Part shown: piece by piece, positions 2,853 through 16,107 of the stretch
How the letters are laid out: each line of letters starts with the position of its first letter
How positions within the stretch are numbered: position 1 is the first letter of the stretch
Assembly: GCA_023249305.1 (NCBI GenBank)
Contig: JAHFCU010000022.1
Location: 1 to 37,984, forward strand
DNA from: Gemmatimonadota bacterium
GTDB taxonomy: Bacteria; Gemmatimonadota; Gemmatimonadetes; Gemmatimonadales; Gemmatimonadaceae
DNA: 37,984 bases
Reading direction: 5' to 3'
The notes under the pieces: generated by a model
The model's database searches: none
Told to the model about the DNA's origin: nothing
The model's input: the letters and a program-made list of their open reading frames with translations, nothing else
Made by a program: the position numbers and the translations under genes

Positions 2853-4367
2853 CTACTTGGACGTTGGGATCACGAACTCGGGACCCTTACTGACGCTCTC
2901 GGGCCAACGCTGCATCACCGACTTTTGCCGCGTATAGAAGCGCACGCCCTCCTCGCCGTACGCGTGCATGTCGCCAAAGAGGCTCCGTTTCCATCCGCCG
3001 AAGCCGTGCCAGGCCATCGGCACGGGGATGGGCACGTTGATGCCGACCATGCCGACCTCGACGCGGCGAGTGAATTCGCGCGCTGCGTTACCGTCGCGCG
3101 TGTAGCAGGCCACGCCATTGCCGTACTCGTGTCCGTTCACGAGTTCGATGGCGCTCCCGAGGTCGGGCACGCGCACACAGGAGAGGACGGGGCCGAAGAT
3201 CTCCTCCTTGTAGATGCGCATGACCGGGGTGACGCGATCGAACAGCGTGCCGCCGGTGAAGAAACCGCTCTCATGGCCAGGCACCGTGAAGCCGCGGCCG
3301 TCTACGATGAGTTCGGCGCCTTCCGCGACGCCGAGTTCGATGAACCCTTCGATGCGGTCGCGCGCCTCGCGCGTGACGATTGGTCCCATCTCGGCGGCCT
3401 TGTCCATGCCGTCCCGAATGACGAGTTGGCGAACGCGCTCGGCGAGCCGCGGCATAATGGCATCGGCGACATCGCCGACAAGCACGGCCACGCTGATGGA
3501 CATGCAGCGCTCGCCGGCGGAGCCGTACGCCGCTCCGATGAGGCCGTCCACCGCCTGCTGAATGTCGGCGTCAGGGAGCACAACCATGTGGTTCTTGGCG
3601 CCGCCGAGCGCCTGCACGCGCTTGCCGTGCTGAGCGACCGTCTCGTAGATGTGGCGGGCGACCGCGGTCGAGCCGACAAAACTCACGGCCTTGACGTCCA
3701 CGTGCGCGAGCAGTGCATCGACCGCCACATGGTCGCCCTGCACGACGTTGAAGACGCCGGGCGGCAGTCCGGCCTGCGTCAGCAGTTGGGCGATGAACAG
3801 CGACGGCGACGGGTCGCGCTCACTCGGCTTCAGTACGAAGGTGTTGCCGCAGGCGATGGCGACGGGGAACATCCACATCGGCACCATGACGGGGAAGTTG
3901 AACGGCGTGATGCCCGCGCAGACGCCGTGCGGCTGGCGCATCGTCCAGTTGTCGATGCCGGTGGAGACTTGATCGGTGTACTGCCCCTTGAGCAACTGCG
4001 GGATGCCGCACGCGAACTCGACGATCTCCGCGCCGCGCGTGACCTCGCCTTGTGCGTCGGAGAAGACCTTGCCGTGCTCCGCGGTGATCATGGCGGCCAG
4101 GTCATCACGGTGCTCGTTGAGCAGCGCGAGAAAGGCATTGAGGATGCGGGCGCGCCGCAGGGGCGCGGCCTCGGCCCAGGCGGGGAACGCGGCGCGCGCC
4201 GCCGCTACGGCGGCGTTCACTTCGTCGGCGGTCGCCATCACGACTTGGCGTGCAACGTCGCCCGAAGCCGGATGGTAGACTGGCTGCATGCGTCCGCCCG
4301 TTCCTGGCACGGCCTGGCCGTTGATATGATGGCCAACGGTCGTCAGTTCAGCGCGCGGATTCGTCAC
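2853..4367 (-). CDS. mmsA: Methylmalonate-semialdehyde dehydrogenase (CoA-acylating)
   Basis: A 504-aa ALDH-superfamily enzyme from GTG 4367; the frame is open to 4454, but the extra residues do not look like the family. The catalytic cysteine is in [11 protein letters not shown]. The segment [16 protein letters not shown] carries the N that replaces the usual ALDH general-base Glu, a hallmark of CoA-dependent MmsA enzymes. Other ALDH signatures are [33 protein letters not shown] and a C-terminal [12 protein letters not shown]. The reaction converts methylmalonate semialdehyde (or malonate semialdehyde) with CoA and NAD+ to propionyl-CoA (or acetyl-CoA), in valine and inositol catabolism. It is divergent from the aminotransferase gene; the shared 4368-4521 gap should hold both promoters. 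Confidence 0.92.
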
Positions 4368-4521
4368 ATCACACTCACGGTTGCGGAGAGTCTGCCTGCG
4401 TACGTTCGAACGCGCGCTGTGGCCACGCAAGGGCGCTGTCCGCGCGCCCGGCACTTGGCGGCGGCGCGGCCGCTATCTTATGATTGCGAACTTTCGTGCC
4501 TCCCCCGCCCCGAACGACGCG

Positions 4522-5832
4522 ATGCCTCGACGCGAGATTGACCTGTCCACGCTCGTCCGCCCTGCGGCAACGAGTCGCGTGTCGGCGATGGCTGCCGGGT
4601 TAACTGGATCTGAGATCCTCAAGATCGCCGCCGAGATTCGCACGATGGTCCGCGATGGCGCGACGATCTGCAATCTCACGGTCGGCGATTTCGACCCCGC
4701 GCAGTTCCCGATTCCGGCGCGGCTCCGCGACGAAGTGACGCAGGCGCTCGCGCGCGGCGAGACTAACTATCCGCCGGCGGATGGGGTGCTCGAGCTACGC
4801 CAGGCGGTGCAGGCCTACTACAAGCGCGAACTGGGCCTTTCGTATCCGCTCGAGTCGATTCTCATCGCCGGCGGCGCGCGGCCGATCATCTACGGCATCT
4901 ACCGTAGCCTCGTGGATGTGGGCGACCGCGTGGTGTATCCTCTGCCGTCGTGGAACAACAACCACTACGTGCACCTCGTCGGCGCGACCGGCGTGCCAAT
5001 CCCCTGCACGAGCGCGGCCCAGTTCCTTCCGACCGCCGCGGATCTTACGCCCGCCTTGGCCGGGGCGCGCCTAGTCTGCCTTAACTCGCCGCTGAATCCG
5101 TCGGGCACGGCGATTGACGCGAAGGTGTTGGCGGAGATCTGCGCCGCGATCGTCGCCGAGAACGCGCGCCGCGAGGGCACCGGCGAGCGTCCGCTGTTCT
5201 TGATGTATGACCACATCTACTGGCCGCTGTGCGTCGGCGACACACGCCACGTGACGCCACCGGAAGTGCTGCCCGAGATGGCAAGATACACTGTCTTCGT
5301 GGACGGCATTTCGAAGGCGTTCGCCGCCACCGGACTGCGCGTTGGCTGGGCCGTTGGTCCGGCCGACATCATTGGCCGGATGGGGGCAATCATCGGTCAC
5401 ATGGGAGCGTGGGCGCCGCGTGCCGAGCAAGTCGCGACGGCGGCGTTTCTCACTGATGTCGCGGCGCAAGAGGAGTTTCGCGCGACGTTCATTCCGGGCC
5501 TCCAGTGCCGCCTTGATGCGGCATACCGCGGGCTTGATCGAATGCGCACACGCGGATTGCCAGTGGAGGCGCTGCCGCCGATGGGCGCCATCTACCTCAC
5601 GGCGCGAATCGCACCGTTCGGCAAGAAGACGGCCGGCGGCGTGGTACTCAAGACGAACGACGACGTGCGCCGGTGGATGCTTGACGCGTCGCAGGTCGCG
5701 GTCGTCCCCTTCCAGGCATTCGGGGTACCAGAAGACAGCGGCTGGTACCGCCTGAGTGTTGGTGCGGCGAGCGAGGCGGCCATCGTGGCCGGCATGTCGC
5801 GACTCGAAGCCGCGTTCGCGCAATTGTCTTAG
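4522..5832 (+). CDS. PLP-dependent class I/II aminotransferase
   Basis: 436 aa. Signatures of fold-type I aminotransferases are ETNYPPADGVLELRQAVQAY, a substrate-phosphate region IAGGARPIIYGIYRSLV, LNSPLNPSGTAID, and the Schiff-base lysine K265 in VDGISKAFAATGLRVGW. The C-terminal part carries GWYRLSVGAAS, including the substrate-carboxylate-binding arginine. The start chosen is ATG 4522; ATG 4480 is possible and would add 14 residues. The general role is amino-group transfer between an amino acid, probably aspartate or aromatic type, and 2-oxoglutarate. The exact substrate cannot be told. It may act with divergent mmsA in amino-acid breakdown, but this is only proximity. Confidence 0.85.
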   Translation: MPRREIDLSTLVRPAATSRVSAMAAGLTGSEILKIAAEIRTMVRDGATICNLTVGDFDPAQFPIPARLRDEVTQALARGETNYPPADGVLELRQAVQAYYKRELGLSYPLESILIAGGARPIIYGIYRSLVDVGDRVVYPLPSWNNNHYVHLVGATGVPIPCTSAAQFLPTAADLTPALAGARLVCLNSPLNPSGTAIDAKVLAEICAAIVAENARREGTGERPLFLMYDHIYWPLCVGDTRHVTPPEVLPEMARYTVFVDGISKAFAATGLRVGWAVGPADIIGRMGAIIGHMGAWAPRAEQVATAAFLTDVAAQEEFRATFIPGLQCRLDAAYRGLDRMRTRGLPVEALPPMGAIYLTARIAPFGKKTAGGVVLKTNDDVRRWMLDASQVAVVPFQAFGVPEDSGWYRLSVGAASEAAIVAGMSRLEAAFAQLS

Positions 5833-12410: not shown

Positions 12411-12445
12411 TTATCGCGCCGCGAACCACTCCCACTTGTGAAGCG

Positions 12446-12730
12446 ATGCCCACGAAGCTGAAGCGCGGCTACACAAATTCCACCACCCAGGAATGGGTTC
12501 CTGCCTCCGAGGTCATCCGTGAGGTTGACGGGATGATCGTGCGTCTCACGGTGCACGGAATCTTCCTGAAGGAGAAGGGCCGCCGCCTTGAGATGGGACC
12601 GTTCGACTACGCCACGCTATATCGCGACGCGGTGCAGCACGATAACGGCCTCGCGCCGATCAAGCCGCGCAAGGGACGTTCGAAAGTCACGGTATCGCGC
12701 GGGCTGCTCGCGACTCGGCGCGGCCGCTAA
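12446..12730 (+). CDS. Hypothetical protein, 94 aa
   Basis: A small basic protein with a lysine/arginine-rich N-terminus and C-terminus (KPRKGRSKVTVSRG, ending TRRGR) and a central segment that alternates strand-like residues (GMIVRLTVHGIFLKEKGRRL). It has no membrane segment or signal. The basic ends suggest nucleic-acid or ribosome contact, but I recognise no family. It begins 36 bp after the acyl-CoA synthetase stop and could be in its transcript. Normal codon use and a clean ATG make it likely to be real. Confidence 0.55.
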   Translation: MPTKLKRGYTNSTTQEWVPASEVIREVDGMIVRLTVHGIFLKEKGRRLEMGPFDYATLYRDAVQHDNGLAPIKPRKGRSKVTVSRGLLATRRGR

Positions 12731-12769: not shown

Positions 12770-13483
12770 TCAATCAAGTCGGCGGAACGCACGCCGCGGC
12801 GGAAAGCCAACGAGTTCCTCCACCGTGAGCCCATCGCGGGCGTAGGCGCCGGCGTAGAGCTGCGAGGCCAACAACGCCTCGGGGCCGCGACCATATTCAT
12901 GGTGATAGCCTGCCACTTCGCCAACCCGCAGGCGCATGGCGAGGGATTCGATTTCGCGCAGGCAGGCGACGCTCGCCGCCGGCACCGCGCCGAGTCGAAG
13001 CGGTAGCTCTCTCCGGCGGCGCGCCCAGAGATCCCGCACGTCGCGACGAAACGCGACGCTTACGCCGAGCGCGCTGAGCATCAGGCGCCACAGGTTGGCG
13101 AACACCGAATCCGAAAAGTGCGACCAGCTCGCCAGCTGCACGCGCGCCTGGTCGGCCGCGGCGAGTTCGGCGCGTACGGCGTCTGCGTCGTACCACGCGC
13201 TGATCGTGTGCGCGGTGATGCGCTTGGACGCAGCGGTGGGATGCAACACCGGAGCGGCCGCGGTTAAGTCAGCGCCGCCGTCATAGCTCTCGAGTTCCGT
13301 CTCAAGCAGGATGAGCACGTACTCGTGTTGGGCGAGCAGACGAGGAATAGCGTGCCGAAGCCAGACCGTGTCCACCGGACTGTCGGCTGCGGACAGGCCG
13401 ATGAAGCACCGTCCCGCGGCCACGACATTTCGCGGGAACAGTCCTTCGTCGAAGGCGGATGGTTCGCTGACTGACAAGTGCAT
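12770..13483 (-). CDS. Divergent cyclodipeptide-synthase (CDPS)-like protein
   Basis: A 237-aa protein matching the CDPS fold in order and spacing. Residues 26-35 (CFIGLSAADS) correspond to the catalytic-serine motif GISxxNS, with D where the NYQ subfamily has N. The region ASWSHFSDS with FRRDVRDL (about 118-152) resembles the V-x-R-W-S-D and F-R-x-D segments. CLREIESLAM (174-183) aligns with the Y-x-x-x-E catalytic helix but has Ala/Cys instead of the first Tyr. EYGRGPEALLASQLYAGAY (196-214) matches the terminal Y202-containing segment. CDPSs use two aminoacyl-tRNAs to make diketopiperazines. With the tyrosine missing, chemistry may differ or be lost. No P450 or oxidase tailoring gene is adjacent. 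The alignment is by eye; a remote class I aaRS-like fold of other function remains possible. Confidence 0.5.
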   Translation of the reverse strand: MHLSVSEPSAFDEGLFPRNVVAAGRCFIGLSAADSPVDTVWLRHAIPRLLAQHEYVLILLETELESYDGGADLTAAAPVLHPTAASKRITAHTISAWYDADAVRAELAAADQARVQLASWSHFSDSVFANLWRLMLSALGVSVAFRRDVRDLWARRRRELPLRLGAVPAASVACLREIESLAMRLRVGEVAGYHHEYGRGPEALLASQLYAGAYARDGLTVEELVGFPPRRAFRRLD

Positions 13484-13583
13484 TGGCTTGAAGGGCGCTC
13501 GGCGCGCGATGTGCCATGGGGGAGATTGGGACCATGCGTGCCAACCGCATAGAAGCTAGTACCTGCCTGCCAGAATTGCTATC

Positions 13584-13596
13584 ACGCCATGTAACG
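13584..13596 (+). promoter_or_regulatory. Operator-like motif, copy 1 (ACGCCATGTAACG)
   Basis: This 13-mer lies in the 170-bp gap between the divergent CDPS-like gene and the TPR-protein gene. It recurs with one change each at 15061-15073 and 15081-15093, beside the AraC-type regulator gene. A weaker relative, CAATGTGTAACAG, is at 13633-13645. It could be the binding site of the nearby regulator; this is inference. Confidence 0.45.
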
Positions 13597-13653
13597 GCTC
13601 TTCGGATCGTTGACGATTGACGCGATAAGTGACAATGTGTAACAGTTGATGTA

Positions 13654-14850
13654 ATGAGTCGTTTCCGCATTGCCGTCGTGTCCGTCACGCCGCGTTCACC
13701 ACTGGATCCGCATGCCATGACCGCCGCCCGGGACCTTGATGGTCTCACCCTGATGTGCGACGTACTCAGCGCCTACCGGCGCGACCTTGAGCGCACACCC
13801 GACGTCATCACGTTCGGCACGCAGGACGAGCGCTGGTTGCGTGAGGCGCTCCGCGTCGAGCGTCTCGTAAGTCAGTCGGACGCGCGGCATCCGCGCCAAC
13901 TGTCTCGGCTCAGCACCCAGCCTCTGTTTCGTGGTCCGCGCCTGCTGGCTCTGGCCGAGCAAATGGAGGCCGCCGGTGCCCTGACTCTCGCGTTCGCGAC
14001 GCTCGCGAGCGCCCGGCGCGTCTGGGAGCGAAGCGACGTCGAGAGTTGCGGGATTGCGATCTTCCGCCAGGCGCGGATCTGCCGAACGTCCGGAGCAACG
14101 CACGCCGCGGCGCACCACTACGCATTTCTGTATTCGTACGCCACGCGACACCGGCTCCCCGAGCTTCGCGGCCGAGCGCTGGTCGGCCAAGGCTTGCTCG
14201 TGGCGCTCGAAGGGAATCCGGCGGCCGGCTGCCGCTGGTATGCGAAGGCGCGCAGCGTGTCGGGCGGTCATCCCGTAGCTTCCGCCGTCGCGTATCACGC
14301 GGAGATGAACGCCGCGCTCAGCATGGGCGATCACTCCGCCGCGCTGGTGGCCGGCTGGCACGCGCTCGAGACTGGCGCGCTCGGGCGTTACGATGAGGCA
14401 GGTGTTCTCGTGAACCTGGCCTCTCTTGCGCTGCGCGCGGGGCACGCTGGCGCCGCGCTGATGACGTGCCGTCGCGCCATCCGCCGGTGCTCGCACCCGC
14501 GCGTCCGGCTCGGGGCGTTCGCCAAGGGCGCGATGGCGGCCGCAGCGCTCGGTCGCGCGAGGCAGGTGGAACGGTTCGCCTCACAGCTCATCGGTGTGGC
14601 GGCGCGCGTCAGCGTGCCGTTCGAGGAGCTCGAGGCGCGCAGTGAACTGGCCGAAGCGTTTGTCCTCGTCGGCGCCGAAGAACGGGCGCGTCGGTTGGCG
14701 CGCAGCGCCAAGGCCGACGCGCAGAACCACGGGTTCGCAACCGTCATCCAGCGTTGCGACCGGGTCCTGCGCGCCACGCAACCGGCCGTGCCACTGCTTA
14801 CGCTGTCTACCGCCGCGCAGCGGGTCGTTGCGGAGCTCGCGGCGGCCTGA
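13654..14850 (+). CDS. TPR-repeat protein, possible peptide or signal sensor
   Basis: 398 aa, predicted all-helical from about residue 90 onward. Repeated A-x-x-x-G/A-x-x-x-A-L-x-x helix pairs typify tetratricopeptide repeats (for example LALAEQMEAAGALTLAFATL, GALGRYDEAGVLVNLASLAL, ARSELAEAFVLVGAEERARR). There is no HTH, kinase or membrane segment. The N-terminal 60 residues are not repeat-like. ATG 13717 is an alternative start. It is convergent with a 42-aa lipoprotein gene (18 bp apart) and close to an AraC-type regulator. TPR proteins bind peptides or partner proteins; here the neighbours suggest a signalling role, but no direct function can be assigned. Confidence 0.7.
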   Translation: MSRFRIAVVSVTPRSPLDPHAMTAARDLDGLTLMCDVLSAYRRDLERTPDVITFGTQDERWLREALRVERLVSQSDARHPRQLSRLSTQPLFRGPRLLALAEQMEAAGALTLAFATLASARRVWERSDVESCGIAIFRQARICRTSGATHAAAHHYAFLYSYATRHRLPELRGRALVGQGLLVALEGNPAAGCRWYAKARSVSGGHPVASAVAYHAEMNAALSMGDHSAALVAGWHALETGALGRYDEAGVLVNLASLALRAGHAGAALMTCRRAIRRCSHPRVRLGAFAKGAMAAAALGRARQVERFASQLIGVAARVSVPFEELEARSELAEAFVLVGAEERARRLARSAKADAQNHGFATVIQRCDRVLRATQPAVPLLTLSTAAQRVVAELAAA

Positions 14851-14868: not shown

Positions 14869-14997
14869 TCAGTTCCAGGGAATGGTGTCGTGCGTGCGGC
14901 TGTGGTCGGACGGCGCGGTCGGCAGCGTGTGGCAGGCAGACAAGGTTCCGAGCAGCAGGGCGACGAGCAGGACACGGGCGATGAACGGGCGTGACAT
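14869..14997 (-). CDS. 42-aa lipoprotein
   Basis: The N-terminal part (SRPFIARVLLVALLLGTLSAC) is an excellent lipoprotein signal with lipobox LSAC. Only about 20 residues follow the cysteine (HTLPTAPSDHSRTHDTIPWN). The start is well supported by GGAGA nine bases upstream of ATG 14997. It is convergent with the TPR gene and divergent from the AraC-type regulator gene, whose operator-like repeats lie in the shared 95-bp gap. So short a mature part suggests a peptide released or displayed at the envelope, or an entericidin-like small lipoprotein; neither is proven. Confidence 0.7.
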   Translation of the reverse strand: MSRPFIARVLLVALLLGTLSACHTLPTAPSDHSRTHDTIPWN

Positions 14998-15060
14998 GAT
15001 CGAGTCTCCGGAAGAAGGGGTCTCCTTCACGAGTAGCCGCCCGGTGCCCTGCCTGCTAAC

Positions 15061-15073
15061 ACGCCATGTCACG
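15061..15073 (+). promoter_or_regulatory. Operator-like motif, copy 2 (ACGCCATGTCACG)
   Basis: It differs at one base from the copy at 13584 and lies 20 bp, about two helical turns, from copy 3. It sits in the divergent gap between the 42-aa lipoprotein and the AraC-type regulator. Confidence 0.45.
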
Positions 15074-15080
15074 AACTATT

Positions 15081-15093
15081 ACGCTATGTAACG
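15081..15093 (+). promoter_or_regulatory. Operator-like motif, copy 3 (ACGCTATGTAACG)
   Basis: It differs at one base from the copy at 13584. Its last base is the first base of the GTG 15093 start chosen for the regulator gene. The in-phase pair of copies 2 and 3 fits cooperative binding of a dimeric AraC-type protein, suggesting autoregulation. Confidence 0.45.
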
Positions 15094-15881
15094 TGGACCG
15101 CGATTTTCGCTCAATTCTGCTCATCGGCACCGCCGGCGATCCTCCGGGCTGGCTCGCGCAGGGCGCGCCTGTCGGCACGTCGATCGTATGCCGCGCGAGC
15201 GTCGCCGAGGCGCGCGCCGAGCTTGAGCGCCGGGAGGTGCGGTTGCTCCTCTCGCCGCTGCGGGATGACGAGGGCAGCGACCTCGCGCTCCTGATTGAAG
15301 GCGTGGTTCGGCAGCGCTACGGCGTGGGGGTCGTCGGCCTCGCGTCGCGTCTGCGCGGCCACCCCGACGACTTGCTGCGCCTCGCGCGGAGCGGCGTGCA
15401 TGCGCTGCTCTTCGACGAAGATCGGCGCGCGTCGATCGTGGTGCGCCGCACGCTAATCGAAGCGTCGACGCGTTGCCGCAGCCAGACCTTCTGGGGCGAC
15501 GTCGCACCGGTCACACCCGAACGGGTACGACCAATCGTCGCGTACGGATTGCGGCATTCACATGAACCGCTCACGGTCGACGCTGTTGCTCGAGCGTTGG
15601 GGCTGCACCGCAAGACCCTCGCCGAGCGTTGCTCATTGTCGGGCAGCCTCCCGCCACAGCTAATGCTCGGGTGGTGCCGGCTGCTCGCCGCCGCCGTGCT
15701 GCTGGAGGATCGCGGTCGCTTGGTGGATCATGTCGCGCTGGAGCTCTACTTCGCGAGCGGAACGGCGTTTCGCAACATGCTCAAGCGCTACACGGGCCTC
15801 TCACCGGCCGAACTACGCGCCAAGGGAGCGATCACCGAGTTGAGTCGCCGGTTCCGCCGCGCTCTGGCACGCGTGGGTTGA
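15093..15881 (+). CDS. AraC-type regulator with degenerate receiver-like N-terminal domain
   Basis: 262 aa from GTG 15093. ATG 15066 is also open but would place the paired repeats inside the coding region. Residues 1-130 resemble a receiver fold (SILLIGTAGDP, VRLLLSPLRDDEG, GVGVVGLASRL, SGVHALLFDE) but lack the Asp-Asp/Asp/Lys phosphorylation set. The C-terminal part (about 155-255) has two helix-turn-helix units of AraC/XylS type: LTVDAVARALGLHRKTLAER, then the second unit with VALELYFASGTAFRNMLKRY and TGLSPAELRAKG. It is likely a DNA-binding regulator that acts without phosphorylation. It lies beside operator-like repeats that recur near the TPR and CDPS-like genes, suggesting a local regulon. 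Confidence 0.78.
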   Translation: MDRDFRSILLIGTAGDPPGWLAQGAPVGTSIVCRASVAEARAELERREVRLLLSPLRDDEGSDLALLIEGVVRQRYGVGVVGLASRLRGHPDDLLRLARSGVHALLFDEDRRASIVVRRTLIEASTRCRSQTFWGDVAPVTPERVRPIVAYGLRHSHEPLTVDAVARALGLHRKTLAERCSLSGSLPPQLMLGWCRLLAAAVLLEDRGRLVDHVALELYFASGTAFRNMLKRYTGLSPAELRAKGAITELSRRFRRALARVG

Positions 15882-16033: not shown

Positions 16034-16107
16034 GCGCGAGTAGCTCAGCTGGATAGAGCGTCGGCCTCCGGAGCCGAAGGTCGTGGGTTCGAATCCCGCC
16101 TCGCGCA
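16034..16107 (+). tRNA. tRNA-Arg (anticodon CCG)
   Basis: A complete 74-nt cloverleaf: acceptor GCGCGAG pairs with CTCGCGC, the D arm is GCTC/GAGC, the anticodon arm is TCGGC-CTCCGGA-GCCGA with anticodon CCG, the variable loop is AGGTC and the T arm is GTGGG-TTCGAAT-CCCGC. The discriminator is A and CCA is not encoded, so a CCA-adding enzyme is needed. It reads CGG arginine codons, common in this GC-rich genome. Confidence 0.95.

Follow-up and report, generated by a model that had tools for sequence, protein, structure and literature searches.

A fast-evolving family of CDPS-like proteins, probably without ordinary CDPS activity, in a gene cassette of one Gemmatimonadaceae genus

The window analyzed here, a 37,984-nucleotide stretch of Gemmatimonadota DNA, encodes on its minus strand (12770–13483) a 237-residue protein that is, in all likelihood, homologous to cyclodipeptide synthases (CDPSs). 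Ordinary CDPS activity has probably been lost in this CDPS-like protein, and since most of its close relatives lack the catalytic serine, it probably does another job. On balance, we favor the interpretation that it is a CDPS-derived pseudo-CDPS without CDPS chemistry, with a binding or regulatory role in a circuit that also comprises an AraC-type regulator, a TPR protein, and a lipopeptide.

Results

The CDPS-like gene is confined to one genus of those searched and constrained at the protein level

The ORF, which starts with ATG, lies exactly where the initial annotation had placed it and is a real gene, as it is kept in relatives and shows protein-level constraint. Its reading frame is open in all nine members of the family, and codon positions 1, 2, and 3 differ at 0.41, 0.36, and 0.56 of the compared sites across all pairs of the nine; these two observations indicate the constraint. 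The window protein shares 37–49% identity with the other members, compared with 80–90% across relatives for the flanking gene, which we take to be Rho, indicating that the CDPS-like protein is fast-evolving.

A search of 99 related genomes recovered the gene in the window protein's own genome and in eight others of the same genus. In the family-profile search, it was present in 9 of the 11 genomes of the genus and absent from all 168 genomes of other genera in the family, which places it in 9 of 179 family genomes and in one of 35 genera. Across the class, 9 of 388 genomes were positive at E below 1e-90; 30 further genomes gave short fragments of 10–16 bits (E 0.009–0.5), which were discarded. 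A match in the same-genus genome G007 (L010; 96 residues, 33% identity) was attributed to chance, as it contains one internal stop and runs antisense to a long open frame.

The family profile aligns with CDPSs

Single-sequence searches of Pfam, NCBIfam, PDB, PHROGs, and PADLOC yielded nothing usable for the window protein, one NCBIfam match (E 0.13) being disregarded. Pfam assigned no family to the window protein and no CDPS match to any of the nine members; six single-member matches (best E 0.05), none of them to CDPSs, were set aside. A PF16715 search of 10 genomes of the genus was likewise negative. The family profile searched against the PDB gave 13 matches, of which eight are colinear CDPS chains with individually non-significant E values of 0.075–0.16, seven of these eight being variants of one protein. 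A longer family alignment matched the PDB CDPS chains at E 0.12–0.24.

A reference alignment was assembled from ten genuine CDPSs, comprising L011 and L027 from the same class (PF16715 matches at 213 and 207 bits) and eight of 22 plasmid records. Within the class, few genomes have a canonical CDPS gene; the two found in 394 genomes are L011 and L027. Compared with this alignment in hhalign, the nine-member profile scored 36.8 (E 1.1e-4, 124 columns), against a maximum of 22.5 over 200 column shuffles and 16.7 for the reversed profile. The window sequence alone scored just 16.8, indicating that the homology signal comes from the whole family. In the alignment, IGLSAADS pairs without gaps with the CDPS segment IGISPFNS, so that Ser31 corresponds to Ser37 of AlbC and Asp34 to Asn40; the W and FR blocks of the family also align with those of the CDPSs. 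The segments listed in the initial annotation (GLSAADS, WSHF, FRRD, CLREIE, and EYGRG) are all present in the order given there.

As a specificity control, 16 PF00579 synthetase matches were collected from eight genomes; fifteen were used (L120 was left out), of which, according to their scores, eight were taken as presumed TyrRS and seven as presumed TrpRS. The family profile scored 14.6 and 16.7 against these two alignments, which corresponds to background. True CDPSs scored merely 14.4 and 17.2 against the same alignments; the control therefore shows specificity, and a deeper tie to the synthetases may still exist.

Predicted structures place CDPSs first

An AlphaFold2 model of the window protein, built with seven of the eight relatives, was of middling confidence (pLDDT 72.9, pTM 0.71). 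A second model, computed from the same eight proteins for L016, a member with Pro at the catalytic Ser position, reached a similar level (pLDDT 73.6, pTM 0.72). With the window model, Foldseek gave 43 PDB matches at E ≤ 0.001, CDPSs accounting for 42. For the L016 model, AlbC ranked first (E 4.6e-8); among the best 50 of 103 matches at E ≤ 0.001, CDPSs occupy ranks 1–28 and 41 rows in all, and the remaining nine are aminoacyl-tRNA synthetases. TM-scores of both models against CDPSs are about 0.5–0.7, with rmsd values of 3.7–7.7 Å. The predicted structures thus indicate that the family shares the CDPS fold, at a distance. The initial annotation had proposed a structural comparison with AlbC, and had named the lack of a CDPS or class I synthetase-like fold, or a better match to another family, as grounds for giving up its assignment. 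The comparison puts AlbC at the top for L016 and CDPSs first for both models, and no other family matched better. Because the hhalign score exceeds those of the shuffles and CDPS structures come first for two models, the remote homology that it had proposed holds.

The N-terminus of the window protein is predicted to be disordered. According to an excerpt of PMC7566563, XYP CDPSs carry a basic tRNA-binding strand at the N-terminus. Toward the C-terminus, both models predict a strand at residues 193/195–198.

Catalytic residues of CDPSs have been lost in the family

In an excerpt of PMC13062777, CDPSs are described as sharing S37, Y178, E182, and Y202 and as dividing into subfamilies by N40-H203 or X40-P203. 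Each of the four shared residues is present in 10/10 of our aligned CDPSs. The codon of Ser31, the equivalent of the AlbC nucleophile Ser37 by the hhalign alignment and its column states, lies at 13391–13393 (−). Across the nine members this column reads SPPSPPPSP, with Ser in three, including the window copy, and Pro in six. The Ser-containing members are scattered, the window protein standing alone and L004 and L008 grouping with the Pro-containing L002 and L003; since they form no clade, the position appears unconstrained. The GLSAADS motif emphasized in the initial annotation is therefore genuine in the window and aligns with CDPSs, but its GLS is not conserved in the family. The N40 column reads DAAARRAAA, with no Asn; the Asp noted earlier at this position is Asp34 in the window and gives way to Ala or Arg elsewhere.

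The C-terminal register (Y178, E182, and Y202) was set by spacing and predicted secondary structure rather than by a confident alignment. The distance from E177 to Y197 is 20 residues, as from E182 to Y202 in CDPSs, which puts Ala173 at the Tyr178 position. In this register, the Y178 column (AAAAAALEL) contains no Tyr in the nine members, in agreement with the earlier remark that the catalytic tyrosine is missing; the sole Tyr in columns 169–180 is at position 176 of L006. The E182 column, aligned in the same way, reads EEEQERRQR with Glu in four of nine, while the neighboring column 179 is Glu or Asp in eight. Tyr197 occurs in all nine at the Tyr202 spacing and at the predicted strand end, and by the same spacing the equivalent of position 203 is Gly198 in every member, neither the His of the NYH type nor the Pro of the XYP type. 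Residues R114, W120, D125, R146, D148, R186, E189, and E196-Y197-G198 are invariant in 9/9. The net charge of the members ranges from −4 to +5; as the ten CDPSs themselves span −6 to +8, this property is uninformative on tRNA binding.

Excerpts of PMC7566563 and PMC13062777 report that exchange of the Ser for Ala inactivates known CDPSs. The window copy keeps Ser31 and may retain some activity.

The gene belongs to a conserved cassette

The CDPS-like gene lies between a conserved gene for a 95-residue protein (12443–12730, +; no Pfam or PHROGs match) and a gene for a helical-repeat (TPR) protein (13654–14850, +; start codon uncertain, conserved part from about residue 27), followed by a gene for an AraC-type regulator (15066–15881, +; HTH_18, E 1e-12) and Rho. 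This order is kept in the eight relatives within the sequence covered, that of L012 stopping inside the TPR gene. A tRNA-Arg(CCG) gene detected by tRNA scan (16034–16107, +) forms the right border of the cassette; in the window and in 6/6 scanned relatives (L012 and L013 were left out), it separates the AraC-type gene from Rho. TPR_12 matched four of eight members of the TPR protein (best E 6.7e-5); the window copy gave no TPR match, and its label rests on these relatives. The TPR-protein profile had no PDB match at E ≤ 0.1.

Within the genus, the 9 of 11 genomes that have the CDPS-like gene are also those that have the TPR gene. In G007 (81% complete), none of the CDPS-like, TPR, and AraC-type genes is present at the locus, where 249 bp containing tRNA-Arg(CCG) separate the 95-residue gene from Rho (L073, 9689–9937); elsewhere in this genome, no TPR or CDPS-like match was found, and the best AraC-type match has 28% identity. 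In G003 (87% complete), neither the CDPS-like nor the TPR gene was found, nor was an ortholog of the neighboring CoA ligase (best 42%), so the locus itself was not seen.

Counting the nine, homologs of the TPR gene are present in 48 of 177 genomes of the family. In 12 of the 39 TPR-positive genomes of other genera, a survey restricted in part to ORFs passing a GC3 filter found no CDPS-like gene beside the TPR/AraC pair; the best candidates, which reached 5.8 bits for the family profile and 8.5 bits (E 0.045) for the CDPS profile, were rejected. Since TPR homologs are common elsewhere and lack a CDPS-like neighbor at these 12 loci, the CDPS-like gene was probably the later joiner, added to an older TPR/AraC pair within this genus. 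At two loci from two other genera, L066 (about 4336–5175) and L070 (about 3670–4911; both numbered with the TPR gene on the plus strand), the place of the CDPS-like gene is taken by another gene divergent to the TPR gene; on visual inspection the two encoded proteins resemble each other, with YVPIL near the start. The immediate neighbors of the window gene that were tested against Pfam include no tailoring enzyme; some of the plasmid CDPS genes have P450 genes alongside.

Operator-like sites recur in the control regions

The divergent CDPS-like and TPR genes share an intergenic region of 170 bp (13484–13653), defined from the alignment of nine loci. It contains an operator-like site, CTATCACGCCATGTAACG (13579–13596, +), with no mismatch to the consensus CTATYACRCCATGTAACG, which is found in this region at 9/9 loci with three or fewer mismatches. 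A weaker inverted copy with five mismatches lies 49 bp from it (13628–13645, −), and inverted second copies 49–51 bp away with four or fewer mismatches occur in L012, L014, L018, and L036. Two direct copies 20 bp apart precede the AraC-type gene (15056–15073 and 15076–15093, +); direct pairs at 20–21 bp are found there in the window, L013, L014, L015, L017, and L036, and a single copy in L016 and L018. Because these sites overlap the listed start, translation of the AraC-type gene may begin instead at 15093, with an in-frame GTG.

Over 21 loci and with up to four mismatches, 30 sites were counted against none for the reversed pattern. Of these, 28 are in the nine loci of the genus and just two in the 12 loci of other genera, indicating that the site is not general to the TPR/AraC pair. 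In the 11 whole genomes of the genus, two mismatches gave 37 matches against none reversed, the consensus having been derived from these loci; 13 lie inside the cassette and 24 outside. Among the latter are a tandem pair about 100 bp from a 266-residue lipoprotein-like gene (G000:C61:7339-7376) and a match at G000:C33:20813-20830. A regulon was sought around the outside sites in 20 stretches, ten of them closely; some sites are near exported or lipoprotein-like genes and others are intragenic, with no common family, and the idea was dropped. Since direct repeats spaced by about 20 bp are compatible with binding by AraC-family proteins, the AraC-type protein is likely the regulator acting through these putative operator sites. 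The motif may also be in part a promoter.

A lipoprotein-like peptide is encoded between the TPR and AraC-type genes

An unlisted ORF on the minus strand between the TPR and AraC-type genes (14869–14997) would encode a 42-residue lipoprotein-like peptide ending in DTIPWN, with a ribosome-binding-like site, a hydrophobic start, and a lipobox-like cysteine. The ORF is found in 8/8 loci that cover the gap (the window, L013–L018, and L036), with 42–43 residues and the ending D[TS]xPWN. A small lipobox ORF also lies opposite the TPR gene in the same gap at 10 of 12 loci of other genera (L059 and L061–L069), five of them ending in PWx, a count that carries no chance control; lipobox-like ORFs were found outside the gaps as well. 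The TPR/AraC/peptide set looks like a putative peptide-signal arrangement. Our literature search found nothing joining TPR, lipoprotein signal peptide, pheromone, and AraC, and one on quorum sensing or pheromones in Gemmatimonads, judged by listing, gave nothing on topic.

Discussion

Taken with the linkage and shared sites, these findings lead us to propose, on balance, that the family is a branch of the CDPS lineage of the HUP/Rossmann fold from which the CDPS catalytic set has been lost. The known cycle of aminoacyl transfer to Ser37, peptide bond formation, and cyclization would be impossible in most members and probably in the window copy. A pocket for a ligand or the tRNA acceptor end would have been kept, marked by the invariant residues from R114 to G198, and the pseudo-CDPS would play a binding or regulatory part in the circuit that the AraC-type regulator forms with the TPR protein and the 42-residue lipopeptide. 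The role in this circuit is a reasoned guess from the linkage and the shared sites. The second suggestion of the initial annotation, that a CDPS gave rise to a protein that binds tRNA, may hold, and we regard the binding of tRNA or an aminoacyl ligand as a tentative, rather doubtful part of the proposal.

The same invariant residues could instead belong to an active enzyme of changed chemistry, in which the substrate amine attacks the aminoacyl-tRNA ester directly without an acyl-enzyme. The conservation of Tyr197 at the putative Tyr202 position and of D125, R186, E189, and E196 in all nine members, together with Ser31 in the window copy, would suit such an enzyme; yet six of nine members carry Pro, a non-nucleophile, at the Ser37 position, the Tyr178 and Asn40 positions are changed in all nine, Glu182 is kept in four, and the tested neighbors include no tailoring enzyme, unlike the P450s beside some plasmid CDPSs. 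We consider it improbable. The new CDPS subfamily with altered chemistry suggested in the initial annotation keeps its remote homology and is weakened by the loss of Ser37 in six members and of Tyr178. It is similarly far from likely that a nucleophile-less CDPS was recruited to a peptide circuit, where it would read aminoacyl-tRNA status or aminoacylate the peptide by direct aminolysis, alongside a secreted lipopeptide ending in PWN, a TPR sensor, and the AraC-type regulator.

Alternatively, the fold might be a scaffold only, binding no RNA or aminoacyl ligand and engaging the divergent TPR protein through protein–protein contacts. In accord with this, the two genes co-occur exactly in the genus (9 of 11 genomes), have a common intergenic region with conserved sites, and are both missing from G007; the TPR/AraC pair nevertheless occurs without the CDPS-like gene at the 12 examined loci of other genera, and many invariant polar residues would go unexplained, so we hold a pure scaffold to be unlikely. 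Very improbable is descent from another HUP family, such as the class I aminoacyl-tRNA synthetases, with the CDPS likeness arising by convergence. Synthetase chains do appear among the Foldseek matches (at rank 43 for the window model and as nine of the best 50 of 103 for L016), but behind CDPSs for both models, and the background-level synthetase scores of the profile also speak against it, at low power given that CDPSs score no better. Neither HIGH nor KMSKS, motifs of such enzymes, was noticed on viewing the sequence.

The pseudo-CDPS interpretation has a wider implication. That a genus has held a fast-evolving family in place after the nucleophile was lost suggests that the fold of CDPSs lends itself to new uses. 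The family's fixed spot beside the TPR/AraC/lipopeptide set offers a concrete circuit for testing what such a use might be. An excerpt of the reference CDPS survey (PMC5816076) states that sequences without the serine were excluded; as far as that excerpt goes, serine-less relatives would fall outside the catalog and were perhaps met earlier and set aside. Our literature searches found no paper linking cyclodipeptide synthase and pseudoenzyme, nothing on topic, judged by listing, for Gemmatimonad cyclodipeptide synthases, and, judged by title, nothing about the putative CDPS of Porphyromonas gingivalis.

That protein (PDB 9gun) and the S. sapporonensis CDPS (PDB 9j61) are among the best structural matches (TMt 0.62–0.73), at 12–17% identity. 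Class I synthetases such as TyrRS belong, according to an excerpt of PMC13062777, to the same HUP superfamily as CDPSs; their catalytic domain is a weaker structural match of lower rank, with a profile score at background. With the NYH and XYP CDPSs (PF16715; AlbC, YvmC, Rv2275, and Nbra-CDPS), the window family shares a length of about 230 residues, the predicted topology, the colinear G-x-S/P, W, and FR blocks, and apparently, by spacing, a Tyr at the 202 position. It differs from them in having no PF16715 match, no Tyr178 or Asn40, mostly Pro at the Ser37 position, Gly after the Tyr202 position, and tested neighbors without a tailoring enzyme.
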